DNA of 64,000 nucleotides from Crambe crambe (lineage: Eukaryota > Porifera > Demospongiae > Poecilosclerida > Crambeidae), in assembly GCA_963924555.1 (NCBI GenBank), contig OZ004581.1:930001-994000 (forward strand). The letters are read 5' to 3'. The notes below the pieces were generated by a model. The model saw only the letters and a list, made by a program, of their open reading frames with translations. It had not been told where the DNA came from and searched no databases. Numbering within the stretch: the stretch's first letter is position 1; each line of letters opens with the position of its first letter. Made by a program: the position numbers and the translations under genes. Below, in pieces: positions 38,660 through 62,157 of the stretch.

Positions 38660-41600
38660 CTATGCCTTGTCCTTGACTGGGATGTGCTATAAATGAAAAA
38701 ATGAGCTGATTTTCTATAAAGATTCCTACCAATAATTATGGAATCCCAAAAGTAAAAGCTAATGATGGATCATTCCTTTCCCTCCACAGATTTCATTGTG
38801 TGTGTGTGTGTGTGTTAAATATAAGACAGGTTATGTCGAGTCATGCAGTTCTTGATGTAAACAGTTATAGGCTCGGCAATGCGTACAAAAAGGAACTTCA
38901 ACTTGTCATGTTTAGTACCCAGGCCTAGACCACATACGTATACAAGGAAGTGTATTATAATAATAATATTACCTTCTTTAATTTGTCTAACAAATTTTCC
39001 TTTTTTAATGAGATCTAGACCTTTGGCAAATGCCCTCCATGTTGGCTTGTCCTCATTATTTATCCACGCTTCAATCATGTCACCATTGAGAGTTGTATCA
39101 TTCATCTTCTTTAGCTCAATAGGATTGAGGCCCAGGTTCTTCCCCAAATCTCTCACTTCATTAGGGTTCAAAGTTGAGATAAACTTCTCAATATCCACAA
39201 CATCATTCATTCCTGCACATTACTCATAGCTAAAATTATCTAGTTCTACTACTTTATTGCTAACTTACCTAATTCTGTAGAATTATCGATACCTTCTATA
39301 TCTGCAATAATACAAAAACATCAATAGTCTAATGACAGGGATACACTGGGGACAGCCATTATGTCCTCCTTGTAGAGAGGTTGTCCTCTCTACGAACTGC
39401 CATTTTACATAAATACGTACAATCATACCTGGTTTTTGATGAGGTTTTTGTGGAATGCCACCATCTGAACCATGAGCGGGAGCAGGGGAGTTTGTAACAG
39501 TTCCCTTGATCTGCATGTCCCAAGCACACATATATTCTTATTGAATAATTATGTCTTAGCTATAGTTACCTCCTCTTGGAGTGAAGTCAACATTCTTCGG
39601 TCAGCCCCTCTTTTGATTCCATAATCTTCTTTCCATTCATCGTCTGATATTGTCAAAAATACACGACCTGCTATCTCTTCCTCTGAAATACGAAAACCAA
39701 ATTCAAACCCATGCATCTCTACAGTACGTACACTACACATACTCTCAATGATATCACAGATTTCTTTCTTTACAAACTTGTTCCGCAGCCAAGCAGCAAG
39801 CTCTTTTGGACTAAATTTTGCAGAAAATTCAACAGCAACGGCTGCTGCAGAGTGACCTTAAAAGATTAGAAATTATAGCCACTGTTGTCAATAATAACCA
39901 TTTCTAAAAAAATATATTATGTGATTCAATACCTAGAGCTAGCTGTATACCTTAAAGTAGCTATAGCTAATTAAACTACAAACAACACAGCATAATCACA
40001 ACACTATTATTTTAAACAGTTATCTGGACAATCATTTTTGCACATACCTTTTGATAGGGAGTAGTATTCCTTGTGTTCATTGTACACTCTTAGCTGATTT
40101 TTTTGTTCTTTGCTCAAAGGGTCAATTTGTGAAGAATATAGAAACCGAGTACTATGCATCCATCTTCCACACTTCTGAGGTATACAGGCTTTTTGAGTAA
40201 CCTAGTTAACTCAGATTGTATTTTATAAATATCTACTGGAACATCGAAAGTCTTATCAGTTTTAATATAAAAAGTAGTTCCTTTGCTTTTCCCAGGAGGA
40301 TTTAATGCATCAATAGGTACTTCACTAAGCCTGCGTTGGCAAAACTCTTTGAAATGCTTTTCATATTTTTCTAACCTCTCCTTATCAGAACTTGTACCGA
40401 ACTGATCGATAATCATCCTCAAGATTCGAAAACTAAAGAACCAACAGTGATGAAATGCTTTTTGAAGTATTTCTTCCACATCACATTCATTAAGCTCTGA
40501 TATTCTGTAAGGTTCAAGTGCAATCTTTAAGGCTGGTATGGATTTAATCGTGCTGGTTAAAGATTTACTAGTTTCAGTAACTAGAATAGCATATTCATCC
40601 CGGATATCGTCGCTTTCCACCGTTAATCTTCCCACAAGTTGTTTCTTTGCTTTATTCGATAAATGGTCAACTTTTAAATAAGGAAAACACTCTTCTGCTA
40701 TAGAGCTATCACCTAGCAGGTAAATAATAGCAATTCTGAAAACTCTCTCATTAAATTTTATAAGTGGCTATTACTACACTAACATTTATGACCCTCACAG
40801 TTTCAAGGGCAACTATATACCAAGTAAACCGAAAAATACCTCATGAAAGTTATTTTTGGTAAGGGTTTTCATTGTTGCAGGCACTAATTATCAATATTAA
40901 ATAGTGCTATATAAAAGCCTCACGGCTAAGAAATAATATATGTATATAATTTATGAGAGTGGTAAAACAACAACATAACATTATCATTATACCATTATTA
41001 TTATTATTGTTTCTTATTAATACCAAACCTCTACACAGTCATAACACCATGACTGTCCTTATAAAGTACTTTTTTTGTATTATAGCTACACTCTACTTTC
41101 AACAGATCATGTGATTCAAGTATGAACCTAGCAGTGTTCTCTTCTCGGAGGGTTCTTTACTTCCCACTGTATTCACTGATATGATTTATGCTTACCAGTT
41201 GTGGTGGTAGGAATAGAATTTTCAAGTTTAGGTGGTGCACAAGATGAAGGAGGTTTGGTAGTTGAAGTATCTTTAAGAGAAGGATGCTTTGCTAAGGAAA
41301 AAAAAAACAGGTCATCGTTATAAGCTAGCTATTGCATTTGGATACTCAAGAGAATGACTCTCACCTGTCATTTTTATCGCTAGCTGCTCATTTCCCCCTC
41401 CCATGGGATGTGCAACAGCATCAATCAGCATCTGAATGGTGGGCTCCATTTCCAGATCAGTGAAGTAGTAAGATGGGTCATTAAAAAGGCCTAGCCATAC
41501 CTATGAGAATTAATTAAAGCTCAGATGAAAGCCATCATATGCACCCTTTGACTAAGAGGTACAGTGGAACCTTGATAATGGACATGCTAGAGAGGTTGCC

Positions 41601-43447
41601 CTCTTTTTGGAGGTAATTTTGTATAGAGTGTATACACAAAGGTACTTTTAGGTTGCTCTTTCAGAGTGTCCTTTATTGGAGGTTCCACTGTATTATAACT
41701 AACTTCAATTAATTCCTGCAATTTCTCTTCCTCAGAGTTGAAATGCTTGCCAGCTATGATTTCCAACTTCATCAAGGGCACTCCAATCAGCGTTCCAACT
41801 TCAAACCATCTGTGAGCCACTTCAAGAATGTCATGGGCCAGTTCACTTATTATCTCCTTTGTTTCATCTACATACATTAAAAAAAAACACATCAATAGTA
41901 GCAGTAAAACTTCATAAGGCCATAGGTATCGTGCTGCACAGCAATCTTACCTAAAGGTCTTTCATCTCCGTTCAGTGCAACAGTTGAAAGAGGCCTCCTC
42001 TCATACTCTGTGTGATTATTAGATACCCTTTTACGTAATAACCAAACGTCTGATAAAGGACACCCCTAAAACTTTCAACAAAGGACAATCTAAAAGTACC
42101 TTTGCATATACACATTCTATTTAATAAGGACAAACTTGATGAATTAAGGAGCAAAGGATGGGTTCCAAATGTCCATTATTCAGAGGTTTCACTGTGAAGT
42201 AAAGGACAAGTGGAAAGTCAGTTATCCCTTACTCAGAGGTGTATCTTATCATGCATACCATAGGCGTAGGAACCATGGGGGCTCCGGGGGCTGGAACCCC
42301 CCTTTATTTTTCCAGCAACTGGCCCCAATTTCAAAGTTTCACATACAGCTTTATTCAGTTTTCAATTTTGTGCTTTGGTGAATGGAGGAGCCCCCCTTAT
42401 TCAAATCATCTTCCTATGCCTATGCATACCTTCCCACTTCATTGCAATAGTCTTAGCAGCTGCAGGATTACCGCCACCCAGGGAATCAGCCACGACATAA
42501 ACGACAGACCACCAACATGGATAAAGGTTCTCATGGTGCTCTCCTCTCTTCATCCATTCATCAAGGGCATGGATCAAACCAAGGGCAGAGTTTGCTGAAA
42601 GTATAGAGTGGAAGATAAGAATGATTCAGAGTTGGGGGTCTAAAAAGTATGGGAAGGGCCTTCTCCATTCCTGAAGCCATGCCAGAGAAGGAGCCAAGTA
42701 TATGGCCCTAGCTGGGAGGATGGATCAGAAAAAGTGGGAAAGAAAGGTGGGGAGGGGGATTTCTCCTCCCGAGACTGAATGTGTTTACCAATCACCGAGG
42801 CAGCTACATAGGTGACTTGCTGTCAGGAAGGTTAGGGGGAATAGGTGGATAGCTACATTTTGTTTCATGGTTTACACAACTGCATGGATCATATCGTATA
42901 GGACATCAAAGGATCAAGTTTCTTAGGTCCTTGTAAACCACTACCTATTTCTCATTCCTTATGGACAACCATCCTGAAGTCTAACAGCATCTCCTCTGAT
43001 TAAGAATGGAGGAATAGGAGAGAAAGGGGATTCTCCTCATAAATTGAAAGTGTTTACTCATCACTGAGACAGCTAGGTGACTACTGACCCGTCCTGTATC
43101 TCCTCTTGAACTGATCGGCAGTGTCAGAGGGTAGCAAGAAACCAGCAATGCTCTCCCATTTAGCACACACTTCAGAGAAGGCCTTAACTAGTGTCACAAA
43201 GTCCTTAGCCTCTGGAAAGGATAGATAAGCATCATAGCTATTATGATCTCATCTCTCTCTGTATAGCTTATCTAGATCCCTCCCTCCCTACATATTTTAT
43301 ACTATATTTGTTGCTTGTTTCAGCTTGTTAGCTACAAGATAAGCTCCACAAAATCTTACCAAACATTCTGATGGGGACATTAGGATACTTTCTAAAAATT
43401 TTCACAGCATGGTTGGGCTTCAGTCCCCTCCAATCAACACTTGCCAT
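38660..43447 (-). CDS. Gene G: Death-like x2, SAM-like, Death domain
   Basis: Thirteen exons join with compatible phases: 43447-43360, 43211-43089, 42594-42430, 41965-41951, 41867-41704, 41500-41365, 41291-41196, 40712-40048, 39856-39570, 39510-39429, 39301-39269, 39212-38973, 38676-38660. About 703 aa. ATG opens MASVDWRGLKPNHAV. Death-like domain 1 spans exons 2-3 (WESIAGFLLP, PCWWSVVYVVADSLGGGNPA), domain 2 exons 5-6 (DILEVAHRWFEVGT, LIDAVAHPMGGGNEQLA). Exon 7 is a Thr/Ser/Pro linker. Exon 8 holds an unrecognised domain of about 220 aa (FHHCWFFSFRILRMIIDQFG, KTDKTFDVPVDIYKIQ, VYLRSVEDGCIVL). Exon 9 looks like a divergent SAM domain (FSPKELAAWLRNKFV, DDEWKEDYGIKRGADRRML). Exon 12 is a Death domain (DKPTWRAFAKGLDLIKKG). 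One base is missing near 40145, so the frame breaks after GCIVL. Confidence 0.7.
42260..42422. mobile_element. hAT-type MITE at exon 3 donor of gene G
   Basis: Termini taggcgtaggaa / ttcctatgccta, flanked by 8-bp duplications TGCATACC (42252-42259 and 42423-42430). The duplication contains the splice donor of exon 3, so the donor exists on both sides of the insert. The 8-bp target size and CATAGG-type ends fit the hAT superfamily, like the full-length hAT at 6194. Confidence 0.85.
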
Positions 43448-44250
43448 CGAGTCCTTACTATACTAGCTAACTACCTCTATAGATAAACATCCTGGGTTAG
43501 TCCCTGTAATTATCAATAATAAATAAATTTAATATACTATCATAACAAATCAACCACTATAATTTAATTACAGCTAGCTATAGAGTCTCTCTAATACTAC
43601 TATGGTGTAGTCTTGAAGCTTCATACTTGGCTGCTCTTTCAAGCTGAACTTGAGAAGGGCATCTTCTATTCATCCACAAGCCTGTCAATACGGTATCCTG
43701 TATACAGCAGAACCTCCGATAAAGGACCCTCCAAGAAAAGGACAACCTCCCAACAATGGATGCTCTTTTGGCCCCTTTCCTATAGGCGTTAGTACATTTT
43801 AAACCTGGCTAACCTCTTTCTACAAAGGACAAAGTGGCTGATCCCTAAGTGTACTTTGTACTCAGAGGTTTCATTGTGATTATAGAATAGGCGAATGGAA
43901 TAAGTCTTTGCTCCTCTTCCTATATAGCATAATTATGTACATATGAGGCTGCCACAACACAGTGGTAACCTCTTGTCCTCACTCCTCAGTGCGTGGTCGA
44001 AACTTACCGGTCATTTTGCTTGCAATGTCTTTGTTGCCTCCTCCCATGTCATGGGCTACAGCATCAATCAAAACTTGGATGGTGGGTGCAGGCAAGAAGT
44101 CATAGTCGTTATTATAGTAGAGAGCCACCCATTTGTGAATAGAGTGATTCCTGAATACTATTAACTGCTGCTAAAATGTCAAGCATTGGCAGAAAGATAT
44201 TTTGGCAGTAAGAATTTGGTTGAAGAATTGAGGAAGATAGCTAGCTATAC

Positions 44251-44430
44251 TGGGGTAATGGGGTAATACCGAACAGTTCAAATAATTATTTTCAAGACTC
44301 TTCAAACTTAGTCTATTTGTGACATATTCTACTGATTATATCTTTGAGCTCAGAAGTCACAAAGTTTCAGAAATATTTGCACCTTTCAGAATTGCCCCAC
44401 AGTTTGGAATCACCCCGCTTTATCTTACCT
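44251..44430. mobile_element. MITE with gggcaattc termini (family 4)
   Basis: Right end gaattgccccacagtttgga then ccgctttatcttac, left end ggggtaataccgaacagttc. Related copies are at 46131-46236, 55279-55500 and 60010-60180. The 55279 copy is the clearest hairpin. Confidence 0.6.
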
Positions 44431-44737
44431 AGACAATATTGTTACAGGGATCTGAATAGAGAGGTGGTTTATCTTACTTCTATCACTGCCATCATTCTGT
44501 CCTTCATCTCATCAATGGGTTCCCGGCTCCAGGGTGGATAAGGGCAGTCCAAGAACCACACCAATCTCAAACCACTTGTTAGCAACATCCTCATACAAGT
44601 GTCTGATCACTCTTCTCATTTCTCCTGGGATAAGCTCACCTGATAAAGAATATTACTAGTAAAGAATATTACTGTCAGTAGTATGAAACCTCCAGTTGTG
44701 GATTATCCCAGGATTATCCCATAAAAAATAAAATTTT

Positions 44738-45306
44738 TAAAGCGTCCATATCTACCCCTTATAAGCTTGATTTAGGTCTCAAAAGAGAGCTCTCTTTGAG
44801 AGCTTTCCAATAGTGTACTTCGTTACAACTTTAGACACCCCCCCCCCCCCCCCCCCCCCCTCCCAATATGGAAAACCTTACATGACCTCAGTGGTTAAAA
44901 AATACTTATAAAATTACCACATACTTAGGAGGCCTTTGATACTCCTATCATAGCTTCTATGGGCCTAGCTGCTTTGGGATTTCAAGGGGGGGGGGGGGGG
45001 GGGGGGGGGGTTCCAAACATATGAAGGTAGATGTACTTTTTTCACATTTACTTCTTTTTTTTGAAATCCCATCGCTCATTCAAAGCAGCTAGGCCCATAG
45101 AAGCTATGATAGGAGTATCAAAGGCTTCCTAAGTATATGGTAATTTTTAAAAATTTTTTTAAAATACTGAGGTCATGTCAGGTCTTCCATATTTGGGGGG
45201 TGTAAAGTTGTAACTAAGTACACCATTGGAAAGCTCTCAAAGAGAGCTCTCTTTTGAGACCTAAATCAAGCTTATAGGGGGTAGTATAATGAAGATATGG
45301 ACGTTC
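44738..45306. mobile_element. Palindromic element with C23 and G25 tracts
   Basis: Outer arms pair cgtccatatctacccc with the complement near 45290, then ttgatttaggtctcaaaaga and gagagctctctttgagagct with their complements at 45229-45270. Poly-C (44838-44860) and poly-G (44986-45010) tracts lie on the same strand. A second inner repeat (tactcctatcatagcttcta at 44940, complement at 45100) surrounds the G tract. No coding capacity. Confidence 0.8.
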
Positions 45307-45309
45307 CCT

Positions 45310-46130
45310 TAATGGACAAACTTGGGACCCAGCTTTGTAGAGAGAGGTTGTCTTCTTTTAGAGTTATTTTAGATTGTCCATTGTCGAGCTTTTAATATCA
45401 ATCCCACTATTTACCCAACTCTTTGACTAAATTCACTACTGATGACTTATACCAGCACACTAGCCTAGCCTGATTATGAGAATTGGTTATGAGTACCAGT
45501 TCTGGCCCTTATTTCTGGCCTGGTTTCAGTGGGGTCTTATGGGAACAAAAATCTACATGTTTACAATGTATGTGCTGGCTTGGTTCTGTCATGGTTCTGT
45601 GCCTGGTGCCAGCCTGGTTTCCTCGACTGAACTGTGCTGGCCTAGCTCACATTTGAAATTTACCTGGGCCAGAACTGTGCTGGTTTAGGTTGGGGGAGGG
45701 GGAGGGGAGAATAGCTGCTCTGGCTGCAGGTATTGTCATCAAATCAGCAAGGACCACACAATAAAGATGTGATGCTGTAGCTGATTGTACTAGCTATAAA
45801 CCTTCCTTATCATTTCCCTGTTTAGAGGATTTCAAATGGGTTGAAGGACTGACCAAAGATTATACAGGAATGATCCCTGTTTTCAGATATCAGCCTGGAA
45901 TATCTACTAGATAGATACCATTGTCACTGGTGGTTAAATCTGCTTGATGATGATGCTATTTTTTAAAGACACTCACTCAGTTCTGTGCTGTCCCCCTCCT
46001 TAGCCATCTCACAGAGATCATTTAGCTTCATACTCTTCAAGAGAATCACATAATAATTAACTTTAATTTCAGCTTGTAATGCACTGAGGAAGGCACAGCT
46101 TTAGACTTACTAAAGAGCGGTTAAGGTAAG
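45310..46130. other. Intronic part of J'
   Basis: Contains low-complexity tggcctggttt-like repeats at 45500-45690 with ggctggttt/ctgtgctgg periodicity, and the J' micro-exon. Nothing else is supported. Confidence 0.35.
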
Positions 46131-46644
46131 GCGGGGCAATTTCGAGGTTGGAGCAATTCTGTCATTTTTGTCTCTCCAATAGACCAACTGAAATATCACC
46201 TTTTTTTACAGTGTTGGAATTGCCCCACTTTAACTTACTATGAGAGGAAATGAGTGTTTAAAGACTAGCTGTTAAATTATTTTCCAAATCTCCAACAATA
46301 GAGGACTTTTAAAATAAGGTACATCACTTTGTGTCTGACAGAAGCCTGACAGTAATTTTCTGGGGCAGCCACTAGTTATTAATTTTACTCTTGAGTCTCC
46401 TTTCCAATCCCTTCAGTATTGAACTGGGGAGCTCAATACACTCTCCAATCCCTTGCCAGCTAGGATACACAGATGACAGAGACTTCACGAGGAGTCTGAG
46501 GTGCTTCTTATGTCCTGTGAGCAGTAAGCTCAGTATTGCACTGCAAGAATTTATATCTAGAATGGATAATTGCTTACCAAACTTGGCAGTGGAAACTTTA
46601 TGATCAGTGAATACTTTTTCAGAAGCGTTTATAGAATAAATTCT

Positions 46645-46692
46645 CGCGCATGCGCAGCTCAGCTCAGAGTGCTAAATATTCGCGCATGCGCG
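46645..46692. promoter_or_regulatory. Paired NRF1-like sites upstream of J'
   Basis: CGCGCATGCGCA (46645-46656) and CGCGCATGCGCG (46681-46692) match the palindromic NRF1 consensus GCGCATGCGC. The same pair with similar spacing stands upstream of gene J at 62214-62251, so a promoter was probably copied with the block. Confidence 0.55.
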
Positions 46693-46745
46693 GAGTGAAT
46701 CATGCATCAACACCTTATTAAAGCAGAATAGTTATTCAGAAATGC

Positions 46746-46851
46746 CTCTTTCTTTCTTCTTTCCTCCCTCCAAATACATCTTCTCCGTAGACTCTGTCCT
46801 TCTTCTTATATCATGTTGAACCCAAAGTTGCAATGGAAGTATCTGAAGTTT
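46746..46851 (-). pseudogene. Broken copy of the fatty acid hydroxylase last exon
   Basis: The minus strand reads the acceptor CTTCAG, then YFHCNFGFNM as in 62572-62446. A deletion then removes the NLFDRLHGTL part and creates ATATAA (stop), followed by KKDRVYGED. It marks the left boundary of the duplicated FAH-J-G/H block. Confidence 0.85.
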
Positions 46852-46919
46852 GTATTGGATACTGAACAAGTAATCATTCTTTATGTAGCATTAATGTAGG
46901 GTAGATAAAGGTATTATAT

Positions 46920-48310
46920 GAAACAGTGAGGTTTTATGAAACACTCTCTTGGAATCCATTTCTTACATGGTTAGCCCTAATGAAAGTGTTCCATAATACC
47001 CCACCGTTTCAGCTCAACAAGTACCTTATACACTCTATACGAAATAACTTCCAACATCTCTACAAAAGGACAAAAGGCTGGGTCCCAAGTGTGTCCATTA
47101 TTCAGAGGTCCCAGGTTGCTACTTCTAATAATGATTACAATACAAAATTAAGGACACACTGGGGACAGCCATTATGTTCCCTCCTTGTAGAGAGGTTGTC
47201 CTCTCCTTGGAAGTAACAGTGAACATTTTGGGACCTTGAAGATAGAGAGCTAGGTTATTGTGTCCTCTTCTCAGAGGGTCCTTTACTTCCTAAGGAGTGT
47301 TATTTAAAATAATTTGTGTTATGAGAATCATTATCATTTTCATACTGACCCAATATCAATAGAGCAGTTCACCCATGAAACATACAAATAGGACAACTTG
47401 ACGAATAAAAAAGGATGGGTTCCAAGTGTGTCCATTATTCAGAGGCTCCACTGTGTGATATAGATTTTTGCATTATTATTAGCTATAAACATAAAGGACA
47501 AGTGCAATGTCATTTATCCTTTACTCAGAGGTGTGTGTGTCTTCTTATCATGTATACCTTCCCACTTCATTGCAATATTAGCAGCTGCAGGATTACTGCC
47601 ACCCAGGGAATCAGCTACTTGGCTCCTTCTCTGTAGCTAATGGCTTCAGGAATGAAGAAGCCCTTCCCATACTTTTCAGACCCCCAATACTGAATCATTC
47701 CTATCTTCTATGACTCTACTTTCAGCAAACTTTGCCCTTGGTTTGATCATGTCCTTGATGGATGGATTTTCTCCTCCTTAGATTGAAAATGTTTACCAAT
47801 CACCGAAGCAGCTATACATAGGTGAGACTATCCATTGGTTGTTGGTTAGGGGGAATAGATTGATAGCAACATTTTGTTCCATGGTTTACACACCTGCATG
47901 GATTCTATAGGACATGAAAGGATCGGTCTTTGTAAGCCACTAGCAACCTATTTCTCATTCCTTATGGACAACCATCCTGAACTCTAACAGTATCTCCTCT
48001 AATTAAGAAAGGAAGAATAGGAGAAAAAGATTTCTCCGCAGCTAGGTGACTACTGACCCATCCTGTATCGAGACCTCTTGAACTGACCGGCAGGCAGTAG
48101 GAAACCAGCAATGCTCTCCCATTAGCACACACTTCAGAGAAAGCATCACAAAGTCCTTAGACTCTGCACCATATAGATTGGCAGGACTCTTTATGATCTC
48201 ATCCCTCACTCACATTATAGTGAGAATTTCTTTAAAGCTAGAAACTAGCTAGCTATTATGCTAAATTTGTTGCTTGTTTTATCTTGAGGTAATTAAGCTC
48301 CATTAAATCT
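46920..48310 (-). pseudogene. Decayed copy of the G/H/I 5' half (K)
   Basis: A truncated exon-3 relic at 47620-47555 (ADSLGGSNPAAA..IAMKWEG) is fused to unrelated upstream sequence. An exon-2 relic with deletions is at 48165-48062, and an exon-1 stub is near 48318. Frames are not maintained. The site corresponding to the hAT-MITE insertion is empty (TGTATACC at 47551-47558). Confidence 0.75.
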
Positions 48311-48319
48311 TACCATGCC

Positions 48320-49240: not shown

Positions 49241-49357
49241 TGTGAAATTCAGAACACCAAACCAAAAGCTTCCTTTAAGTATAGCCCGACTCTAAAAGTC
49301 ACAATTAAGTCCTTTGAAAGGAAGCTATGTAAATTTTGGTTTGGTGTTCTGAATTTC
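49241..49357. mobile_element. MITE with gaaattcagaacacc termini
   Basis: gaaattcagaacaccaaacc at the left and ttttggtttggtgttctgaa at the right form a TIR of about 24 bp. Inner pairing joins agcttcctttaa with ctttgaaaggaagct. Shorter relatives are at 13551-13660, 16046-16130 and 17255-17330. Confidence 0.8.
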
Positions 49358-49521
49358 AATCCACTCTATGATCTGCCTGGTCCTCAGGATATTGTTAAAC
49401 CAACAGAGCATGATAAAGTTCTCTAACCATGTATGTAGCTATGGTCTCTAGCCTGAGAAGCATACCATAAAAAGTAAATTATGCCTCAGTATGTAACCTA
49501 AACTTTTATACCATTTCTTAC

Positions 49522-52500
49522 CGGGTACTCTAGTTTGAACAGCTGGGGCAATAGCTGAATCTGATTGGTCATTTTGCACCGGTATTGGGACCAAGATCTC
49601 TGCTTTTGATAGGAAAGTTTGATTCAAAATGGGTACTGAAAGAATGACTTACACTGTACTTAGCTACCTGGTATATATGATGCAGGGAAGGTGTTTCTTA
49701 AAGTGCTTTGTTCAGCATCTAGAGCTTCTCTTAGTCGCTTCATCACCATAACACTGTCAGAGTCTTGTAGAATGTTGCACAAGCCGTCCCAAGTTAGTGG
49801 GTAGCGTTTGCGATTAGGAAGTACATCACAATTTTCCATCCACTTCCCAAAGACTTCACGCATGCAATCAATCATTTCACGTCCCATTCCTGGAGCAGTG
49901 ATGATGGAAATAGCAACCTGACTCAGACCAATCACAACAGCAACCTCCTTCCATTTTGGCGACATCTCTTCGTAAATCTTCAGATTTTCTTCCCTTCCTT
50001 TTGGGTCAATCCATTTTATGAGTTGGAGGTGGTAGTAAACGATATTTGGGAGCTGAACTGATCCTATAAGGGATGGAGCATCAATGTAGTTATTGAAATG
50101 TTTAAGCCTTACTTTGGTCACTAGCCGATGGTGTCCTTTTGTGCACATTTAGTGGCAGCAATGTGTGGTCAGTACCAGTAGCACCTTGAGCTCTTGCTCC
50201 ATCTAAATAGCAAAAACTCACCACATTCTATTGACTATGATTATAAAAACACTATTGCCCATGTAGACACAAACTAATGCAAACACACCGGCTAAAATCT
50301 GACACACTGCCTGAGCTGCCATAGTAGCTCCTCCTTCAAGTAACTTTTTTAGTAAGTGACCATATGTTGCATGGAAAGCATGTCTGTTCCTCCAATTACG
50401 CAGAGCTGCTATTCTAAAAAAGTAAATTAATTTTAAAATTTAGTTAGCTCAAATTGGACAGGGGCATTATATTATAGGAAGCACTTTGGCCAGTCAGGCC
50501 ATGGTCTGACCAATATTTTCGATGAAAATGGATGTGGCCCCATACCAAGGGCATGGTTACACGTGACATGTGGCACTCTTTTTCTAAAGATGCTCCTGAG
50601 GTTCCTCACCAACTAGATTCAGGAATTAACCCTTATATGAGTGAAGTTATTTGTGGACGCTATAACATAAGCTAGTGAATTCATTGGTGATTCTGAGCAT
50701 AGAATGATTGATGGGTGTAGCCATTAAGGGTGTGGTTTGAATGGCCTGACCAATGCAAGTCTGCTTGCTGGCTGGGTTAATTTCTTGCCAGGGCACAGCT
50801 ATGTTTCATGTTGGACTTGAGCAAGATTCTACTTTTGAGCTATTCTGCCAGGGGATGTGCCCTGGCAGCCCCTGGTTTCCCCTATTGGAGGATAAAATCT
50901 CCAAATTACCCCCTTCAAATTACTATAGTACCTTACCAAATTACTAGTACCTTACCAAATTACTAGTACCTTACCAAATTACTAGTACCTTACCAAATTA
51001 CTACTACCTTACCAAATTACTAGTACCTTACCAAATTACTACTACCTTACCAAAATATTTCCTCCACTCCTTCCCAAAATTAATTTCAAGCAAGCACCTA
51101 ACCTTTGGAGGGCAGGTTTGTTTCTGTAGCTGTTTTTAATTTCACTAATATCCACTTTAGTGAGTCCCAAGTGGCTTGCCCTCGACTCCCAGTCCATTAA
51201 GTGGTTTGCTATCTCTCCAAGATCCTTCTCCACGCCTTTGTGCTCAAAATCCAGAGCCTTATCCAACTTGAATCTGCACTGAGGTGGGATGAAGTCCACA
51301 TATTCAGAATATAGTTTGTCTACTCCACCTGTATCCATTACTTCCAAGTTAACTAGAATTAATTAACTATTATTCACTCTCACCTGTGTTTCCCCCTCCC
51401 ATTTTTGTCGCTAGCTGCTCGTTTCCCCCTCCTATGGGATGTGCAACAGCATCAATCAGCATCTGAATGGTGGGCTTCATTTCCAGATCAGTGAAGTAGT
51501 GAGACGGGTCATTAAAAAGGCCCAGCCATACCTATGAGAATTAATTAAAGCTCAGATGAAAGCCACCACACGCACCCTTTGACTAAGAGGTACTTGATAA
51601 TGGACACATTAGAGAGATTGCCCGATTATGGAGGTTATAGAGTGTATACACAAACTAAGTCCTTTGTTGAGAGGTTTATCCTCTTTCAGAGTGTCCTTTA
51701 TTGGAGGTTCCACTGTATTATAAGTAACTAACTTTGATTAATTCCTGCAATTTCTCTTCCTCAGAGTTGAAATGCTTGCCAGCTATGATTTCCAACTCCA
51801 TCAAGGGCACTCCAATCAGCGTTCCAACCTCAAACCATCTGTGAGCCACTTCAAGAATGTCATGGGCCAGTTTACTTATTACCTCTTTTGTCTCATCTAC
51901 GTACATACAAAAAAATCAATAGTTGAGGTAAACTTGCAACAGTAAACTTCATAAGGCCATAGGTATTGTCCTGCACAGCAATCTTACCTAAAGGTCTTTC
52001 ATCTCGGTTCAGTGGAACAGTTAAAAGAGGCCTCCTCTCATACTCTGTAGGATTATAACCAAACCTCTGATAAAGGACATACCAAAACTTTCAACAAAGG
52101 ACAATCCTTTGCATATACACACTCTATACAAACAGGACGAATTAAGGACCAAAAAATGGGTTTCAAGTGTGTTCCACTGTGTAATATGGATTTTTGTATA
52201 TTAGTTATACAGTGACACTGAAAGGACAAGTGCAATATCAGTTATCCCTTACTAAGAGGTGTGTCTTATCAATTCATGCATACCATAGGCGTAGGAACCA
52301 TGGGGCTCCGGGGCTGGAACCTCCCTTTATTTTTCCAGCAACTGACCCTAATTTCAAAGTTTCACATTCAGTTTTCAATATTGTGCTTTGGTGAATGGAG
52401 GAGCTCCCCTTACGTATTCAAATCATCTTCCTATGCCTATGCATACCTTCCCACTTCATTGCAATAGTCTTAGCAGCTGCAGGATTACCGCCACCCAGGG

Positions 52501-53379
52501 AATCAGCCACGACATAAACGACAGACCACCAACATGGATAAAGGTTCTCATGGTGCTCTCCTCTCTTCATCCATTCATCAAGGGCATGGATCAAACCAAG
52601 GGCAGAGTTTGCTGAAAGTATAGAGTGGAAGATAAGAATGATTCAGAGTTGGGGGTCTAAAAAGTATGGGAAGGGCCTTCTCCATTCCTGAAGCCATGAC
52701 GAAGGAGTCAAGTATATGGCCCCAGCTGGGAGGATGGATCAGAAGGGGAGAGGAAGTGGGAAAGAAAGGGGTTTCTCCTCCCTAGACTGAACGTGTTTAC
52801 CAATCACCGAGGCAGCTACATAGGTAATTATTCATTGCTTGTTGTCAGGTTGATAGCTAGATTTTGATTCATGGTTTACACAACTGCATGGATCGTATAG
52901 GACATCAAACCTTGTAAGCCACTACCTATTTCTCATTCCTTATGGACAACCATCCTGAAATCTAACTGCATCTCCTCTAATTAAGAATGGAGGAATAGGA
53001 GAGAAAGGGATTTCTCCTCATGAATTGAAAGTGTTTACCCACCACTGAGGCAGCTAGGTGACTACTGACCTGTCCCGTATCTCCTCTTGAACTGATCGGC
53101 AGTGTCAGAGGGCAGCAAGAAACCAGCAATGCTCTCCCATTTAGCACACACTTCAGAGAAGGCCCTAACTAGTGTCACAAAGTCCTTAGCCTCTGGAAAG
53201 GATAGATAAGCATCATAGCTATTATGATCTCATCTCTCATCTCTGTATAGCTTAACTAGATAGCTACAAGATAAGCTCCATAAAATCTTACCAAACCTTC
53301 TGGTGGGGACATTAGGATAATTTCTAAAAATTCTCACAGCATGGTTGGGCTTCAGTCCCTTCCAATCAACACTTGCCAT
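49522..53379 (-). CDS. Gene I: two Death-like plus two Death domains
   Basis: Exons with compatible phases: 53379-53292, 53192-53070, 52611-52447, 52002-51988, 51896-51733, 51531-51384, 51352-51103, 50413-50289, 50202-50176, 50063-49668, 49599-49522; the 3' end is not resolved. The first six exons are close copies of genes G and H (MASVDWKGLKPNHAV; RWFEVGTLIGVPLMELE; LIDAVAHPIGGGNEQLA). The second domain gained 12 nt that repeat MGGGN at its end. Exons 7-8 form a Death domain split by an intron (EIANHLMDWESRASHLGL, then IAALRNWRNRHAFHATYGHL and QAVCQILAG). Exon 10 encodes another (EMSPKWKEVAVVIGLS, MREVFGKWMENC, YPLTWDGLCNILQ). Exons 9 and 11 are linkers. No frame break is seen in these exons. 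Confidence 0.7.
50928..51056. repeat. 19-bp tandem repeat, about 7 units
   Basis: Unit accttaccaaattactagt repeated head to tail with few changes, in the intron between the two halves of gene I's first Death domain. Each unit holds ccttac on the plus strand, i.e. GTAAGG on the coding strand, a donor-like string repeated through the intron. Confidence 0.9.
52285..52439. mobile_element. hAT-type MITE at exon 3 donor of gene I
   Basis: Same position, termini and TGCATACC target duplications (52277-52284, 52440-52447) as in gene G, with a small internal deletion. Confidence 0.85.
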
Positions 53380-53399
53380 CGAGTCCTTACTATACTAGC

Positions 53400-53800
53400 T
53401 AACTACCTCTATAGATAAACATCCTGGGTTAGTCCCTGTAATTAATAAATTTAATATACTATATTACTATCATAACAAATCAACCACTAAAATTTAATTA
53501 CAGCTAGCTATAGAGTCTCTCTATGTAATACTATGGTGTAGTCTTGTTTAATCTTGAAGCTTCATACTTGGCTGCTCTTTCAAGCTGAACTTGCGGGGAA
53601 AATTTTTTGAAAACCACGCCCACTTCCCAAGCCACACCCACTTTTTTAAATGAGCCTGATAATAATACTGATGAATAGGATGATAATGCTTGACTGATGA
53701 ACTGACAAAAAATATTCATGATAACAGTGCTGAAGGAATCAGAGCATGTTGAATGAGGTGGAAATGATGAAGCATGTCATCGAGTGAATGGAGTGGAGAA
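53400..53800. other. Upstream region of gene I
   Basis: Contains the gctctttcaagctgaactt sequence that in the G and H units follows the J terminal exon. In this unit the J-type gene is missing and replaced by unrelated sequence ending at the palindromic TTAA element. No exon is seen. Confidence 0.4.
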
Positions 53801-53807
53801 AGTCGGT

Positions 53808-55215
53808 TTAAAGGGTAGGTTGAATGAAAAAAAAATTTTTTTTTTAATATCACCAAAACCCTTTCAAGGTAGTCTATAAACTAAATATATTATAATTTTA
53901 ATTCACACTACAGCATAACACCCACAAAAAATCATTCTTTTCAGCTAGAAATCAACATTGATATTTACTTCCTGTTGTGGGCGGGGCTTAACGATGACGC
54001 AGATGTAGGGATTCATTTGGCCATACGCTATAAATTATGGCAACAGATGGTAGTCTAGGTGACCATAGTTCTGGAGAAAGCACTTTAGACTCAAGCTCTT
54101 CACTAGGAAGTAGTTCAGGTGACAGCTCCCTAGCACTTTCATATGCATCTTCTGAGTTTGAAGGTGCTGATGAGCCAGAAGGAGTGCATCCATTTCTCTA
54201 TGAGCCTGTTACCAGTAGTGATAGGAGTGATTCAAGTGATGGTGACTCACCTAGACTTCTCAATACAGATTGGTAAGTAAACAACAGTTCAAGTGTATTG
54301 AATAGTTAGATTTTTTTTTTGTTTCTCAATGTTGAAGGTGCACTTGTGGTCACTGTATGATAATACCTACAGCTATAGAATGTCTCTGCTGTAGTGAAAT
54401 TACAGAAATGATGAATAAAAGATCAACAGAAGAAGTAGGGTGTATTACTCTTCACCCGGGGTTTCAAAGTGTTTGCTTGAATAGCTCCTTCAATAGCATT
54501 TTCACCATACTGCTGTCTATAGCTATAACATGCGGTTTGGAGAACCCATGTATTCAAGCAAACACTTTGAAACCCCGGGTGAAGAGTAATACACCCTACT
54601 TCTTCTGTTGATCTTTTATTCATCATTTCTGTAATTTCACTACAGCAGAGACATTCTATAGCTGTAGGCATTATCAAGTGCACCTTCAACATCGAGAAAC
54701 AAAAAAAAAATCAATACACTTGAACTGTTGTTTACTTACCAATCTGTATTGAGAAGTCTAGGTGAGTCACCATCACTTGAATCACTCCCTTCATCATCAT
54801 CACTACTGGTAACAGGCTCATAGAGAAATGGATGCACTCCTTCTGGCTCATCAGCACCTTCAAACTCAGAAGATGCATATGAAAGTGCTAGAGAGCTGTC
54901 ACCTGAACTACTTCCTAGTGAAGAGCTTGAGTCTAAAGTGCTTTCTCCAGAACTATGGTCACCTAGACTACCATCTGTTGCCATAATTTATAGCATGTGG
55001 CCAAATGAATCCCTACGTCTGCGTCATCGTTAAGCCCCGCCCACAACAGGAAGTAAATGTCTAATGTCGATTTCTAGCTGAAAAGAATGATTTTTTTGTG
55101 GGTGTTATGCTGTAGTGTGAATTAAAATTGTAATATATTTAGTTTATAGACTACCTTGAAAGGGTTTTGGTGATATTTAAAAAAAAAATTTTTTTCCATT
55201 CAACCTACCCTTTAA
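53808..55215. mobile_element. Palindromic TTAA element, copy 2 (inverted, intact arms)
   Basis: Inverted relative to 31642-33050, with the loop also reversed, so the whole element is flipped. TTAA at 53808-53811 and 55212-55215. Plus arm: MATDGSLGDHSS at 54037, exon end NTD plus split W codon, donor GTAAGTA, acceptor GTTGAAG, then CTCGHCMIIPTAIECLCCSE and CITLHPGFQSVCLN. Minus arm: the same acidic protein (54984-54736) and a second exon running through the loop (VCLNTWVLQTACYSYRQQYG) but lacking the CTC.HC codons. The Cys/His pattern fits the P2X7 C-terminal (zinc-binding) domain, judged from memory of that family. Confidence 0.8.
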
Positions 55216-55278
55216 AAAGTATCATGTATACAACAATACATACATACTCGGGTATCATGCATAATAACAATACAATTG

Positions 55279-55500
55279 GTAAATTAGGGCAATTCTGAAT
55301 GGTGGGGTAATTCCCAACGGTTCAATATTTCTGAAAGTAGCTACTGAGACTTCTGAGCTCAAAGGGAGGATTAGCTATATTCTATACTATCATAGTAGAT
55401 TTTATCTTCCAACTTTGAGCTCAGAATTCTCAGTAGTTTCAGAAATATTGAACCATTCGGAGTACCCCGCCGCCGTTCAGAATTGCCCCACTTTATGTTA
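55279..55500. mobile_element. Hairpin MITE, family 4
   Basis: ttagggcaattctgaatggt pairs with the right end gttcagaattgccccac. Inner arms tcaatatttctgaaagtagc and tgagacttctgagctcaaag pair with their complements at 55410-55460. Confidence 0.7.
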
Positions 55501-55509
55501 AATCTAACA

Positions 55510-56280
55510 CTAACAACATACATTTACAGAGGAATCCTCTCTAGCCTCACGATGTAGAGTAAGTGATCAAAGATCGGACACCATGTATTATCGATACACT
55601 ATATCTCAGGAATGACAGCATGGAGAACCAAATTTAAACTACCACAATGGAGTATAAACCTTCCTTATTCTGTCACCAAAAAATTGTTTTTATATCTTTT
55701 GTTATTTTTCAAAGCAATAGCTAGAAATGTAACTTACCTCAACACGCACTTGGAAATAATAACCATGGTTTTTAAATGAATCAGAGCGCACCAAGAAACA
55801 ATAACTGTGGCCACCGCGATGCGTTGCTAGAATTGAACCAATTGGAATGACCATCTTTACCGGGTTTACCTAGGGCAAGTGAATTCTAAGTGCTATAAGG
55901 CGTGATTCTAAGTGCCATAAGGCGTGATTCTAAGTGAATAGAATTCACCAAATGGACCAATCAGATTCCTTGATTGTGACTAGCTATAGTCTATTATTAC
56001 TATTATTATTATTATTATGACCTGAGAGTTGGGTCAGCTCACTCGCTGAGTTGTCTACAAAGGAGGTCCCAAGTCACATGTGTCTATGTCTATTTGGAGG
56101 TTTCTTTTAGGGGGGAGGGGACCTTTTAACCTACTTTGGAAAGGAATTAGAAGTGATACAGTCAGATCCTGTAGGTGGGCGGGGATGAGAAACCAAAATA
56201 GTGGCCTTATAGATAAAGTAGTCCAGAATCACTACTACAATGACACACAAAAAGATGACCAAATTTTAAAACCCAAGATA
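55510..56280. other. Intergenic, downstream of gene H
   Basis: Contains a duplicated gattctaagtgccataaggc string at 55885-55930 and a (att)n tract near 55990. No exon is seen. Confidence 0.3.
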
Positions 56281-56283
56281 GAG

Positions 56284-59195
56284 TCATATGGTAGAGGCTA
56301 TGCTGTTCAACTCCATCTTTTCAAGCACACTTTTCAAAAATTTCCAAGATGGCTCGTGTTTTGGATCACTTTTGTCCATCCAAAGACTTATGATTTCTTG
56401 CAACACTCTGCTGGAATTTCTTGGGTGGTCCTGTTCAACTCGTTCCACGTCGGTTTTCTTCAAGCCCAGTTCTAAAGCAAGGTCCAAATACCTCAGAACT
56501 GATAGTTCCTTTAAACAATGCAATGCCACTTCTTTCAAACAAAACTCCTTGTCTATAATGAATGAAACAGGGGAGATATTAGCAGGTTATAACTATTTCC
56601 TTAATTACCTCCATATTTGGTGACTGTTGTTATTGATGATCCATTTGATAAAGGCTTTTCTATAATAAAATCATTGATTTATACTTAAAAGTTAACCTCC
56701 AATAAAGGATGTCATTCTGAAATAGGAATCTCTCAACAAGTACCTTATACACTATAACCTCCAACCTCTCTACAAAGGGACAAAAGGCTGGGTCCCACGT
56801 GTGTCCATTATTCAGAGGTCCCAGGTTCCTACTTCTAATAATGATTGCAATACAAAATTAAGGACACACTGGGGACAGCCATTATGTTCCCTCCTTGTAG
56901 AAAGGTTGTCCTCTCCTTGGAAGTAACAGTGAACATTTGGGACCTTGAAGATAGAGAGCTAGGTTATAGTGTCCTCTTCTCAGAGGGTCCTTTACTTCCC
57001 ACTGTATTCACTGATATGATTTATGCTTACCAGTTGTGGCGGTAGGAATAGAATTTTCAAGTTTAGGTGGTGTACAAGATGAAGGAGGTTTGGTAGTTGA
57101 AGTATCTTTAAGAGAAGGATGCTTTGCTAAGGAAAAAACAAACAAACAGGTCATCATTATAAGCTATTGCATTTGGATACTCAAGAGAATGACTCTCACC
57201 TGTCATTTTTATCGCTAGCTGCTCATTTCCTCCTCCCATGGGATGCGCAACAGCATCGATCAGCATCTGGATGGTGGGCTCCATTTCCAGATCAGTGAAG
57301 TAGTAAGATGGGTCATTAAAAAGGCCCAGCCATACCTATGAGAATTAATTAAAGCTCGGATCAAAGCCACCACACGCACCCTTTGACTAAGAGGTACAGT
57401 AGAACCTCAATAATAGAGAGATTGTCCTCTTTTTGGAGGTTATTTTGTTATATACAAAGGTACTTTTAGATTTAGCCTTTGTTGAGAGGTTTGTCCTCTT
57501 TCAGAGTGTCCTTTATTGAAGGTTCCACTGTATTATAACTAACTTTAATTAATTCCTGCAATTTCTCTTCCTCGGAGTTGAAATGCTTGCCAGCTATGAT
57601 TTCCAACTTCATCAAGGGCACTCCAATCAGCGTTCCAACTTCAAACCATCTGTGAGCCACTTCAAGAATGTCATGGGCCAGTTCACTTATTATCTCCTTT
57701 GTTTCATCTACATACATTTAAAAAAAAACACATCAATAGTAACAGTAAAACTTCATAAGGTCATAGGTATCGTGCTGCACAGCAATCTTACCTAAAGGTC
57801 TTTCATCTCCGTTCAGTGCAACAGTTGAAAGAGGCCTCCTCTCATACTCTGTGTGATTATTAGATACCCTTTTACGTAATAACCAAACGTCTGATAAAGG
57901 ACACCCCTAAAACTTTCAACAAAGGACAATCTAAAAGTACCTTTGCATATACACATTCTATTTAATAAGGACAAACTTGATGAATTAAGGAGCAAAGGAT
58001 GGGTTCCAAGTGTCCGTTATTCAGAGGTTTCACTGTGAAGTAAAGGACAAGTGGAAAGTCAGTTATCCCTTACTCAGAGGTGTATCTTATCATGCATACC
58101 ATAGGCGTAGGAACCATGGGGGCTCCAGGGGCTGGAACCCCCCTTTATTTTTCCAGCAACTGGCCCCAATTTCAAAGTTTCACATACAGCTTTATTCAGT
58201 TTTCAATTTTGTGCTTTGGTGAATGGAGGAGCCCCCCTTATTCAAATCATCTTCCTATGCCTATGCATACCTTCCCACTTCATTGCAATAGTCTTAGCAG
58301 CTGCAGGATTACCGCCACCCAGGGAATCAGCCACGACATAAACGACAGACCACCAGCATGGATAAAGGTTCTCATGGTGCTCTCCTCTCTTCATCCATCC
58401 ATCAAGGACATGGATCAAACCAAGGGCAGAGTTTGCTGAAAGTAGAGTCATAAATGAATGGAAGATAAGGAGTTGGGGTCGGGAAGGGCTTCTCCATTCC
58501 TGAAGCCATGACAGAGAAGGAGCCAAGTATATGGCCCTGGCTGGGAGGATGGAGAGGGAGTGGGAAAGAAAGGTGGGGAGGGGGATTCACTGAGGCAACT
58601 ACATATGTGACCATTCATTGCTCTCAGGAAGGTTAGGGAATAGTTGATAGCTACATTTTGATTCATGGTCCTTGTAAGCCACTACCTACTTCTCATTCTT
58701 TATGGACAACCATCCTGAAATCTAACTGCATCTCCTCTGATTAAGAATGGAGGAATAGGAGAGAAAGGGGATTTCTCCTCATAAATTGAAAGTGTTTACC
58801 CATCACTAAGGCAGCTAGGTGACTACTGACCTGTCCTGTATCTCTTCTTGAACTGATTGGCAGTGTCAGAGGGCAGCAAGAAACCAGCAATGCTCTCCCA
58901 TTTAGCACACACTTCAGAGAAGGCCTTAACTAGCGTCACAAAGTCCTTAGGTTCTGGAAAGGATAGATAGCATCATAGCTACTATGATCTCATCTCTCAT
59001 CTCTGTAAAGCTTAACTAGATCCTTCCCTCTCACCCTCCCTTCCCTACACATCATTTGTTTCTTGTTTTAGCTTGTTAGCTACAAGATAAGCTCCACAAA
59101 ATCTTACCAAACCTTCTGGTGGGGACATTAGGATAGTTTCTAAAAATTCTCACAGCATGGTTGGGATTCAGTCCCCTCCAATCAACACTTGCCAT
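56284..59195 (-). CDS. Gene H: two Death-like domains plus Death domain
   Basis: Eight exons: 59195-59108, 58953-58831, 58435-58271, 57806-57792, 57707-57544, 57335-57200, 57126-57031, 56552-56284. They sum to 1056 nt, 351 aa, with all junction phases agreeing and no internal stop. ATG opens MASVDWRGLNPNHAV. Death-like domain 1: VTLVKAFSEVCAKWESIAGF then PCWWSVVYVVADSLGGGNPA. Domain 2: ISELAHDILEVAHRWFEVGT then LIDAVAHPMGGGNEQLAIKM. A Thr/Pro linker follows, and the last exon is a Death domain (LRYLDLALELGLKKTDVE, VLQEIISLWMDKSD, EPSWKFLKSVLEKMEL). A possible extra 15-nt exon near 56625 (SPNME-like) would also keep phase. Gene J lies 219 bp upstream on the same strand. The 15-nt micro-exon is the weakest part. 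Probably an intracellular adaptor; no signal peptide or membrane segment. Confidence 0.75.
58101..58263. mobile_element. hAT-type MITE at exon 3 donor of gene H
   Basis: As in genes G and I, with TGCATACC at 58093-58100 and 58264-58271. Nearly identical to the gene G copy. Confidence 0.85.
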
Positions 59196-59413
59196 CGAGT
59201 CCTTACTATACTAGCTAACTACCTCTATAGATAAACATCCTGGGTTAGTCCCTGTAATTATCAATAATAAATAAATTTATTATACTATCATAACAAATCA
59301 ACCACTATAATTTAATTACAGCTAGCTATAGAGTCTCTCTAATACTACTATGGTGTAGTCTTGAAGCTTCATACTTGGCTGCTCTTTCAAGCTGAACTTG
59401 AGAAGGGCATCTT

Positions 59414-62157
59414 CTATTCATCCACAAGCCTGTCAATACGGTATCCTGTATACAGTGGAACCTCCGATAAAGGACCCTCCAAGAAAAGGACAACCTCCCA
59501 ACAATGGATGCTCTTTTTGGCCCCTTTCCTATAGGCGTTAGTACATTTTAAACCTGGCTAACCTCTTTCTACAAAGGACAAAGTGGCTGATCCCTAAGTG
59601 TACTTTGTACTCAGAGGTTTCATTGTGATTATAGAATAGGCGAATGGAATAAGTCTTTGCTCCTCTTCCTAGCATATGTGCATATGAGGCTGTGGTAACC
59701 TCTTGTCCTCACTCCTCAGTGCGTGGTTGAAACTTACCGGTCATTTTGCTTGCAGTGTCTTTGTTGCCTCCTCCCATGTCATGGGCTACAGCATCAATCA
59801 AAACTTGGATGGTGGGTGCAGGCAAGAAGTCATAGTCGTTATTATAGTAGAGAGCCACCCATTTCTAGTATGTTAGTGAATAGAGTGATTCCTGAATACT
59901 ATTAACTTCTGATACTGTTGAATATGGGAAGTTACCAGATAATTATATTTTGGCAGTAAGAATTTGGTGAAGAATTGAGGAAGATTGCTAGCTAGCTATA
60001 CTGGATGTGAATGTGAGGTAAAGCGGGCTAATGGGGTAATACCGAACAGTTCAAATATTTATTTTCAAGACTCTTCAAACTTGTGAAAGATATACATATT
60101 CTACTGATAATATCTTTGAGCTCAAAAGTCACAACGTTTGCATCTTTCAGAATTGCCCCACAGTTTGGAATTACCCCCCTAGACTATATATTATTTTATT
60201 GTTTACAGGGGTCTGAATAGAAAGGTGGTTTATCTCACTTCTATCACTGCCATCATTCTGTCCTTCATCTCATCCTCTTCACCAATGGGCTCCAGGGTGG
60301 ACAAGGGCAGTCCAAGAACCACACCAATCTCAAACCACTTGTTAGCAACATCCTTAAGGTACTCAACATACAAGTGTTTGATCACTCCTCTCATTTTTTC
60401 TGGGCTAAGCTCACCTGATAAAGAATATTAGTATGAGTGAAATGATGCATTAACAGTGAATTCTCCACACACTTGTCCCTTGCCTTGTAGAGAGAGGTTG
60501 TCCTCTTTTTAAGGTACTTTTAGACTTTTTTTTGAGAGAGGTTTGTAAGCTTTATCGGATTGTATTCATATTCACTTTTTATCTTTGTATTGATGTATCT
60601 AGCTATCCCAACTCTTTGACTAAATTCGAGACAACCCTCTTACATATTAGGTTAGTAGATATTGGGGGAGGGGGGAATGACAGAATACTCGAAAATATAG
60701 TCACCTCACTCTCATCAACAGCAAGGACCACACAATAAAGATGTAGCTAGTTGACTAGACCTTATCATTTCCTGTGAAGAGGTTTCAAATAGATAGAAGA
60801 ACTGACCAGAAAATTATATAGGAATAATTCCTCTAAGGTTTTCAGATAGGTAAGTAGCTAGGACCAATTGGTCCTCAAGGTTGGAATAATTAGCTAGCTA
60901 CCTGCTAGAATCAATACTGGTCCTGCTTTTATGATGCTATTGATAAAGATACTCACTCAATTGTGTGCCGTCTCCCTTCTTAGCCATCTCACATAGATCA
61001 TTTGCTTCATATTCTTCAAGAGAGTTACACATTTAATTATCACATTAAATTTACTTTTTAATTTCAGCTATATTGTTAATACATTCATACTTTCCCAATT
61101 TTTTGCTATTTCACGAGCAGCTGCAGGGTTACCCCCTCCTATGTCATCCGCTACGATGTAAACAATGGACCACCAGCATGGGTAGAGCTTCTCGTTTCCT
61201 GAACCACTCAGCCACTTGTCCATCACATAAATCAGTCCTTTAACTGAGCCCTCTATAGAGAAAGAGAAAGAGAAGAAGAGCTTAGTGACATAACTTGTGA
61301 CCAATCAGATCCTCTGAAAAGTGTGTTTTAGATCTCATAAAGCACACTTAAATATTTAGTGCACACTTGAGGAACCGTGCTGTAGGCTAGGGCTAGGCTA
61401 GGACTAGGATTCTGTAAGGACGAACTGGAATTTGATTGGTCACAAGTCATGTGATCAGCACTAAAATGTTTACTAGCTCCATGTGTTTTAATGCATAGTG
61501 CACTCGAATGATGCTATAATGGTCTCGGTGATGTAATCCACTTGCCTTGGCGCGCGCTCATGCATTACATTCACCTCGAGCATTATAGCATCGAGGTGAA
61601 TGTAATGTGGAAGAAGAGGAAGGCATAGCTTAGACAAGAAGAAACATTTTATAGGAAAGGACAGCTAACACGAAGAAACAACTTTTACTACTAATGAAAT
61701 AATGATAAGAAATGAGTACATAAAGACTGTTAAACAATTGATAATGAAGTTTTTTCTCCACTACAGCTACCAATTGAGGACCTTCCTTATAAAACACATC
61801 ACTCTGTATTTTAACAGTTATTTTCTGAAGCCTGATAGTAATTTTCTGAGGCACTACAGTAGCTAACTTAAGCTTACTCTTGAATCTCTTTCCCAATCCA
61901 TTCAGTGTTGCACTGGGGAGCTCAATGCAGTCTCCAATCCCTTGCCAGCTAGGATACACAGATGACAGAGACTTCACGAGGAGTCTGAGGTGCTTCTTGG
62001 GTTCTGTGTGCAGTATTTATTTAAAGTTCAGTAAATGGCCTATCTTGCACCTTGCCAGCAAGCAATTCTTACCGAACTTAGCGGTGGGAACTCTATAATC
62101 AGTGAATATTATTTCAGAAGCGTTGGAAGTCAAGCCCCTCTCTCTAGCACTGGCCAT
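59414..62157 (-). CDS. Gene J: compact protein of two Death-like domains
   Basis: Seven exons: 62157-62073, 62003-61878, 61252-61091, 61013-60957, 60414-60239, 59864-59738, 59445-59414. They total 765 nt (254 aa plus TAG) with every phase agreeing. ATG opens MASARERGLTSNASEI. Domain 1: LVKSLSSVYPSWQGIGDCI, then YPCWWSIVYIVADDIGGGNP. A micro-exon linker (NDLCEMAKKGDGTQLS) leads to domain 2: MRGVIKHLYVEYLKDVANKW, FEIGVVLGLPLSTLEP, then LIDAVAHDMGGGNKDTASKM, ending YRIDRLVDE. Each domain is split by an intron in the same place as in G, H and I. Domain 1's intron is phase 1 and domain 2's phase 0. Without a C-terminal Death domain it could act as a small adaptor or inhibitor; that is inference. 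Confidence 0.75.
60010..60180. mobile_element. MITE family 4 in gene J intron 5
   Basis: Starts gtgaggtaaagcgggctaat and ends cagaattgccccacagtttg-like. Same insertion as 44251-44430 in the J' copy, so it predates the block duplication. Confidence 0.6.

Follow-up and report, generated by a model that had tools for sequence, protein, structure and literature searches.

A candidate array of Death-fold genes in the sponge Crambe crambe with an N-terminal cassette shared with NACHT genes

Can a sponge gene array hold its N-terminal unit constant while varying its C-terminal, effector end, and what would such genes connect? The question is raised by a tandem cluster of Death-fold genes (G, H, I and J) on the minus strand of chromosome 1 (C1) of Crambe crambe, which was followed up in a window of 64,000 nucleotides (nt), C1:930001-994000, within an assembly of 143,139,886 bases in 119 contigs. 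The consulted part of the published genome description (odCraCram1.1) reports PacBio reads, a quality value (QV) of 58.1, 124 scaffolds, 143.20 Mb and a chromosome 1 of 9.57 Mb (PMC12166358). The original prediction, made from the window's letters, saw here a rapidly evolving family that varies its effector end with the logic of an immune cluster. The reading developed below, held with slightly less than even confidence, is that of a young tandem array of chimeras in which a cassette of NLR genes is joined to Death tails and which may act as ASC-like linkers.

Exon joins were placed by hand at GT-AG borders and then checked by script for phase and stops, giving the following models, with lengths in amino acids (aa) and positions counted within the window:

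59195-56284, minus strand: gene H, 9 exons, 382 aa; cassette exons 1-6 at 59195-57200, linker exons 7-8 at 57126-57031 and 56659-56609, terminal Death exon 9 at 56552-56284
53379-49660, minus strand: gene I, 10 exons; cassette exons 1-6 at 53379-51384, Death exons at 51328-51103 and 50413-50289, linker at 50202-50113, last exon at 50063-49660
43447-38654, minus strand: gene G; cassette at 43447-41365, linker exon 7 at 41291-41196, TRADD-N-like exon from 40712 with the frame lost near 40130, SAM-like exon at 39856-39570, linker exons at 39510-39429 and 39301-39269, Death-like exon at 39212-38973, exon at 38686-38654
62157-59326, minus strand: gene J, 7 exons, 278 aa, at 62157-62073, 62003-61878, 61252-61091, 61013-60957, 60414-60239, 59864-59738 and 59429-59326

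As first proposed, G, H and I, all on the minus strand, have in common a six-exon cassette starting with MASVDW, with GT-AG introns, consistent phases and 92-95% protein identity to H (G 95%, I 92%). Gene H, predicted to end in one Death domain, does so: every intron is GT-AG, phases agree, no internal stop interrupts the nine-exon frame, and its C-terminus matches PF00531 (aa 317-381, E 3.9e-7, 30.5 bits against a cut-off of 22.6). Gene J was likewise correctly recognized as a related, cassette-only gene, with an open seven-exon frame and consistent phases; it carries an older version of the cassette (47% identity to H) and nothing else. The frame of gene I is open over 529 aa provided that a 55-nt intron (51383-51329) is spliced.

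The distribution of the cassette was established with a genome-wide count, as the original prediction had suggested, combining a codon pattern for CWWS plus its neighbours with a protein search. The pattern has 19 exact sites, 17 on C1 and two on C5, and its reversed form has none in the genome; one further locus, C1:5413k, was detected by protein search only, for a total of 20 loci, intact or not, of which 18 lie on chromosome 1. A NACHT match follows the cassette 1.2-2.8 kb downstream on the same strand at at least five of the 20 (C1:1463k, 1473k, 1483k, 1494k and 1919k), a lower bound because 103 of 232 candidates were scored in the NACHT scan. At both such loci that were read (L054 and L055), the last exon of the cassette joins the NACHT exon in frame by reading, and NACHT is confirmed by Pfam, so that the cassette also heads a NACHT (NLR) family of chromosome 1. 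Among the scored candidates no NACHT place is listed in the window, and NACHT is absent from the Pfam matches of the H and I proteins and of three G tail exons. A cassette tree covering 14 of the 20 loci (all but C1:1463k, 1473k, 1483k, 1803k, 4210k and 5702k) places J weakly (82/79).

These paralogs also bear on the internal structure of the cassette. A 15-nt micro-exon had been proposed between its two halves; it was dropped as unsupported, because a 57-nt exon 4 keeps both frame and phase in all four genes, and because separate exon matches of about 23 residues stand at the exon-4 place in five NACHT-linked paralogs. A 15-nt version of exon 4 would likewise keep phase in G, H and I. Beyond the cassette paralog at C5:3572k, the adjoining stretch (L053, C5:3574401-3579400) holds long helical-looking frames, possibly another class of C-terminus; an impression by eye of ARM-like repeats 3' of this cassette was discarded, Pfam being blank in the three frames scanned.

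Structure prediction suggests that the cassette is a unit of two Death domains. The single-exon relative L059, matched by both cassette halves, is predicted as a six-helix Death fold. Fifteen single-exon stretches were collected, of which L070, without a match at E 0.1, was excluded from alignment A2; sub-cut-off Pfam Death matches occur in 6 of 14 single-exon relatives. When the cassette domains were compared by profile to Death domains alone, the result was moderate (89%), and a PDB sequence search using H returned nothing significant.

The tails lead to a different family. Six relatives beyond the array match the H Death exon over its full length (62-74% identity; C14, C8, C11 and C1), and the one on C14 sits, with the same entry phase, after a 750-aa exon in which COR-A scores 36.3 bits against a cut-off of 35.3. 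The last exon of I has relatives at 71-78% on C18, C8 and C1, the C18 relative following a Roco-like exon in the same phase. By this exon homology, the H Death tail and the last domain of I are also the ends of Roco-like (COR) GTPase genes elsewhere. On the plus strand of C18:506515-928843 the I-type terminal Death exon occurs ten times across 0.42 Mb, a Roco-like exon preceding the one copy that was read (L058). The earlier claim that I carries two different Death domains is borne out for the first tail domain (aa 284-359; PF00531, E 5e-14, 52.6 bits against 22.6) and not for the last, which has no Pfam Death match over the cut-off, one relative scoring 17.5 bits.

How such a chimera may arise can be read at the junction of gene I:

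51341..51384, minus strand: fusion junction of I; cassette homology stops at ACAGGTGAGAGT, then comes sequence that aligns to the C1:556k gene (5' flank with start codon)

The cassette homology between I and H ends at ACAGGTGAGAGT, which is the end of exon 6 with its donor. The bases just 3' of this point align instead with the beginning of a cassette-free Death gene at C1:556k, its 5' flank and its start codon, and the first bases of the I tail, ATGGATACAGG, are identical to the start of that gene. No cassette was found in the 3 kb upstream of the C1:556k gene, nor is one listed near it in the genome-wide cassette search. Because homology switches at this point to the start of a gene that has no cassette, I is a fusion at the DNA level. 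As the I tail begins a gene of its own elsewhere, the join needs the 55-nt intron, and a fusion at the protein level, depending on it, is possible but not secure. The length is not odd, introns of 49 and 56 nt occurring in the I and H models. Among 12 matches to the first Death exon of I, an ATG opens four, three of them in L057 and the fourth at C1:514k; the remaining eight, as read, seem internal or are unclear. In L057 (C1:553001-557400), a 79% relative of the G SAM-like exon (1862-2161, minus strand) lies beside an I-type gene and has two stops as read.

The array copies are young. Whether exons or introns are compared, 0-9% of aligned bases differ among G, H and I (intron identity 91-99%), and because introns are nearly as similar as exons the copies are judged recent. 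Over the 400 bases upstream, divergence is 1% between G and H and 12-13% between I and either of them. Near-identity shifts along the genes, G and I being identical in exon 3 and G and H 99% identical in intron 3, which is the pattern that gene conversion or unequal exchange would leave. Synonymous and replacement differences were compared over 243 codons by Fisher test. A synonymous excess per site was found for G-H (11 synonymous and 11 replacement differences on 157 and 572 sites; p 0.0026) and for H-I (15 and 19 on 158 and 571 sites; p 0.0025). The cassette coding sequence bears the signal of purifying constraint in two of the three pairs; the description "rapidly evolving" therefore fits the copy number and not the cassette coding sequence.

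Taken together, each array gene begins with a cassette of two predicted Death domains that also fronts NLRs of chromosome 1. Death domains assemble through like-to-like contacts, and ASC links NLRP sensors to caspase-1. By analogy with ASC and FADD, the array cassette would bind the like cassette of NLR sensors through Death-Death contact, while the C-terminal Death domain would recruit another Death protein. H would then act as a linker for immune or cell-death signalling, as would I provided that it is spliced, and J would be a cassette-only competitor or regulator. The immune-cluster comparison is retained in modified form: this is a recent tandem Death-fold family linked to immune families, in which the constant end is an NLR front and the tails are related to Roco-like and TRADD-N-like families. 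A bolder proposal, which we consider rather unlikely, is that sponges capture the NLR's own N-terminal cassette and attach to it the Death tails of a different signalling family, producing NLR-matched linkers, and that the I locus records such an event. The exon-6 donor would have come to lie some 50 bp ahead of the start codon of a free-standing gene with two Death domains, an in-phase acceptor being present by chance in its first codons. Linker and sensor would stay matched because both share one duplicating cassette.

Several results weigh against the linker reading. The cassette halves of H and I have no Pfam match at E 1 (no Death, DED, CARD or PYD), the Foldseek Death matches of L059 are weak (best E 0.034), and the folded protein is a relative and not the spliced cassette; the proposed Death fold is thus upheld by structure prediction of a relative and missed by the Pfam profiles. 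Downstream sequence was read at nine of the 20 cassette loci (four in the window, C1:514k, 1494k, 1641k, 1919k and C5:3572k), and NACHT was present in two of them; beyond the 1641k and C5:3572k cassettes no NACHT-size frame was seen in 4.6-5.0 kb. The Roco-like exon on C18 scores 21.4 bits for COR-A, under the cut-off of 35.3. The G-I comparison (9 synonymous and 18 replacement differences on 158 and 571 sites; p 0.15) reveals no significant constraint, I may be two genes, and both the binding by the cassette and the recruitment by the tail are taken from analogy.

Gene G adds to this list. Its cassette and linker exon 7 are open, but the exon from 40712 passes a TRADD-N-like stretch and loses its frame near 40130, whereas all nine relatives examined (of 11) stay open. 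The SAM-like and Death-like exons beyond are open and phase-true among themselves, and cannot be reached in frame by a simple model. Because of this break, the product of G would be truncated, or G would be a pseudogene downstream of the cassette. The SAM-like exon is sub-threshold (Pfam SAM_1 E 0.018, 15.8 bits, cut-off 23; its 514k relative E 0.068) and the Death-like exon has no Pfam match. G as one protein ending in an unknown domain, a SAM-like domain and a Death domain is not confirmed. For TRADD-like_N, the G exon reaches E 0.071 and three of nine relatives E 0.0033-0.015, all under the cut-off, the other six being without a match. A structure model of it, examined for an RRM-like fold, is of low confidence, with a mean predicted local distance difference test score (pLDDT) of 62 and most of residues 130-196 at about 50 or below, and has no useful PDB match. 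At E 0.001 or better the exon matches 147 places in the genome, itself counted, and ten of ten listed relatives have by reading an AG acceptor in the same phase, with exon starts varying by a few codons. Its abundance fits the published TRADD-N expansion of sponges, the label itself being below the Pfam cut-off. As G is frame-broken and the I join uncertain, H is the only secure intact chimera, and the claim that the array varies its effector end holds for the presence of different C-termini, over three genes of which one is broken and one uncertain.

A birth-and-death origin would account for much of this. According to this explanation, which we hold to be possible but improbable, the array is the debris of a segmental duplication cluster in which only H and J are intact, G, the I tail and the rest are accidental neighbours, and there is no functional swapping of ends. 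The broken frame of G, the independent start of the I tail elsewhere, introns nearly as conserved as exons, and three decayed copies speak for it. Two of these copies lie in the array as originally noted (about 48.2-46.9k and 46.7-44.0k), and a third (37.7-36.2k) lies beyond the interval first described; a fold-back element is listed with them:

43979..46700, minus strand: J', a decayed copy of J upstream of G, frame broken by reading in the exon near 44520; blocks 42926-44658 against 58667-60433 (88.7%, includes part of G and H), 45736-46080 against 60712-61062 (69.1%) and 46341-46629 against 61827-62124 (78.9%)
46980..48210, minus strand: decayed cassette remnant with pieces of exons 2 and 3 and H-type intron 7 sequence
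36171..37720, minus strand: decayed H-like 3' half (exons 4-9) downstream of G, with a stop in the Death exon; 966241-966423 on C1 has one TGA
53808-55216, no strand assigned: 1.4-kb fold-back element between H and I; a second copy, 98% identical, at 31642-33051, left of the array

Against mere debris stand the frames of H, I and J, open across 9, 10 and 7 exons, and the synonymous excess in two of three pairs.

A related qualification comes from the locus at C1:514k. Its cassette is 63-76% identical to that of H in exons 2, 3, 5 and 6 and 44% in exon 1, and within the next 4-5 kb lie two SAM-like copies, Death-like exons, an I-type Death exon (36-43%) and an H-type Death exon (62%); no TRADD-N is listed there in the genome-wide search. 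Because modules related to G, H and I stand side by side at this locus, part of the C-terminal variety in the window may reflect differential retention from a 514k-like locus instead of free swapping. The left of the window may itself hold partial copies of the 514k locus: Death-like exons lie at 676-954 and 18348-18626 (minus strand), the first 83% identical to a C1:514k exon and similar in its flanks too. A caspase-like exon occupies 2248-3153 (minus strand; Peptidase_C14 E 2.7e-21, SGHG and DACRG motifs); a caspase-Death fusion was considered here and rejected, since this exon closes with a stop codon of its own, whereas the Death-like exon at 954-676 seems to belong to a partial 514k copy. 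The same region contains two near-identical pairs of long frames, hAT/ZMYM-type transposase-like by eye (6492-8314 and 19373-21218, plus strand), a retroelement reverse transcriptase-like frame, also by eye (1-400, minus strand), and a tandem repeat with several frames open on both strands (25985-27013).

CARD-only and PYD-only proteins are competitive inhibitors, and by the same analogy cassette proteins without NACHT could be decoys that inhibit the NLR family, their tails being incidental. The intact, cassette-only J and the sharing of the cassette with at least five NACHT-linked loci are consistent with this; the open Death tails of H and I would be unexpected were the cassette alone important, and we judge the explanation unlikely. 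That the array is one regulated locus, whose cassettes pick among downstream ends by alternative splicing, even from one gene to the next (J spliced into H exon 2, G reading past its own tail), is very improbable. Many module borders are phase 1 and the sixth exon of J ends in a phase accepted by H exon 2; against this, phase-1 borders are common in animal genes, and an in-frame stop interrupts the decayed H-type end that lies downstream of G.

The linker reading can be set beside known systems. ASC, FADD and CRADD are bipartite Death-fold adaptors; like them, the array genes have two ends each matching a different partner class, a likeness known here from sequence sharing, but their cassette has two predicted Death domains and no CARD, PYD or DED match. 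In Amphimedon, the parts of the study consulted describe a lineage-specific expansion of TRADD-N and Death-like proteins (357 with TRADD-N), and sponge Death-like units with variable C-termini were already described there (Kaur et al., 2021, eLife; PMC8195603). As far as that account extends, the two systems share a lineage-specific expansion in a sponge, a constant N-terminal unit of one to three Death-like domains, an often fast-evolving variable C-terminus and, putatively, TRADD-N; in Crambe, by contrast, H, I and J show no TRADD-N, the TRADD-N-like exon of G is frame-broken, and the constant unit recurs in NACHT genes, the tails in Roco-like ones. Sponge NLRD genes (NLRs with an N-terminal Death domain), as described for Dysidea avara in the sections available (PMC12909245), resemble the at least five cassette paralogs with NACHT directly downstream, but no NACHT was seen in the window and the cassette domains fall below Pfam Death. 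In brown-algal ROCO genes, LRR exons are shuffled within one family, according to the consulted part of that report (PMC11378527); exon-level shuffling in candidate immune receptors is common to both, whereas Crambe joins whole modules of different families. Neither this array nor the cassette appeared among the publications listed in searches of the open-licence literature.

Because the cassette lies below Pfam Death, cassette NLRs would probably be filed by Pfam-based schemes as NLRX, that is, without an identified N-terminal domain, and surveys that file sponge NLRs by their Pfam N-terminal domains probably undercount Death-type NLRs. It is still open how NLR signalling partners keep matching sensors that duplicate fast; one simple solution, testable in a sponge, would be a duplicating N-terminal cassette common to both.

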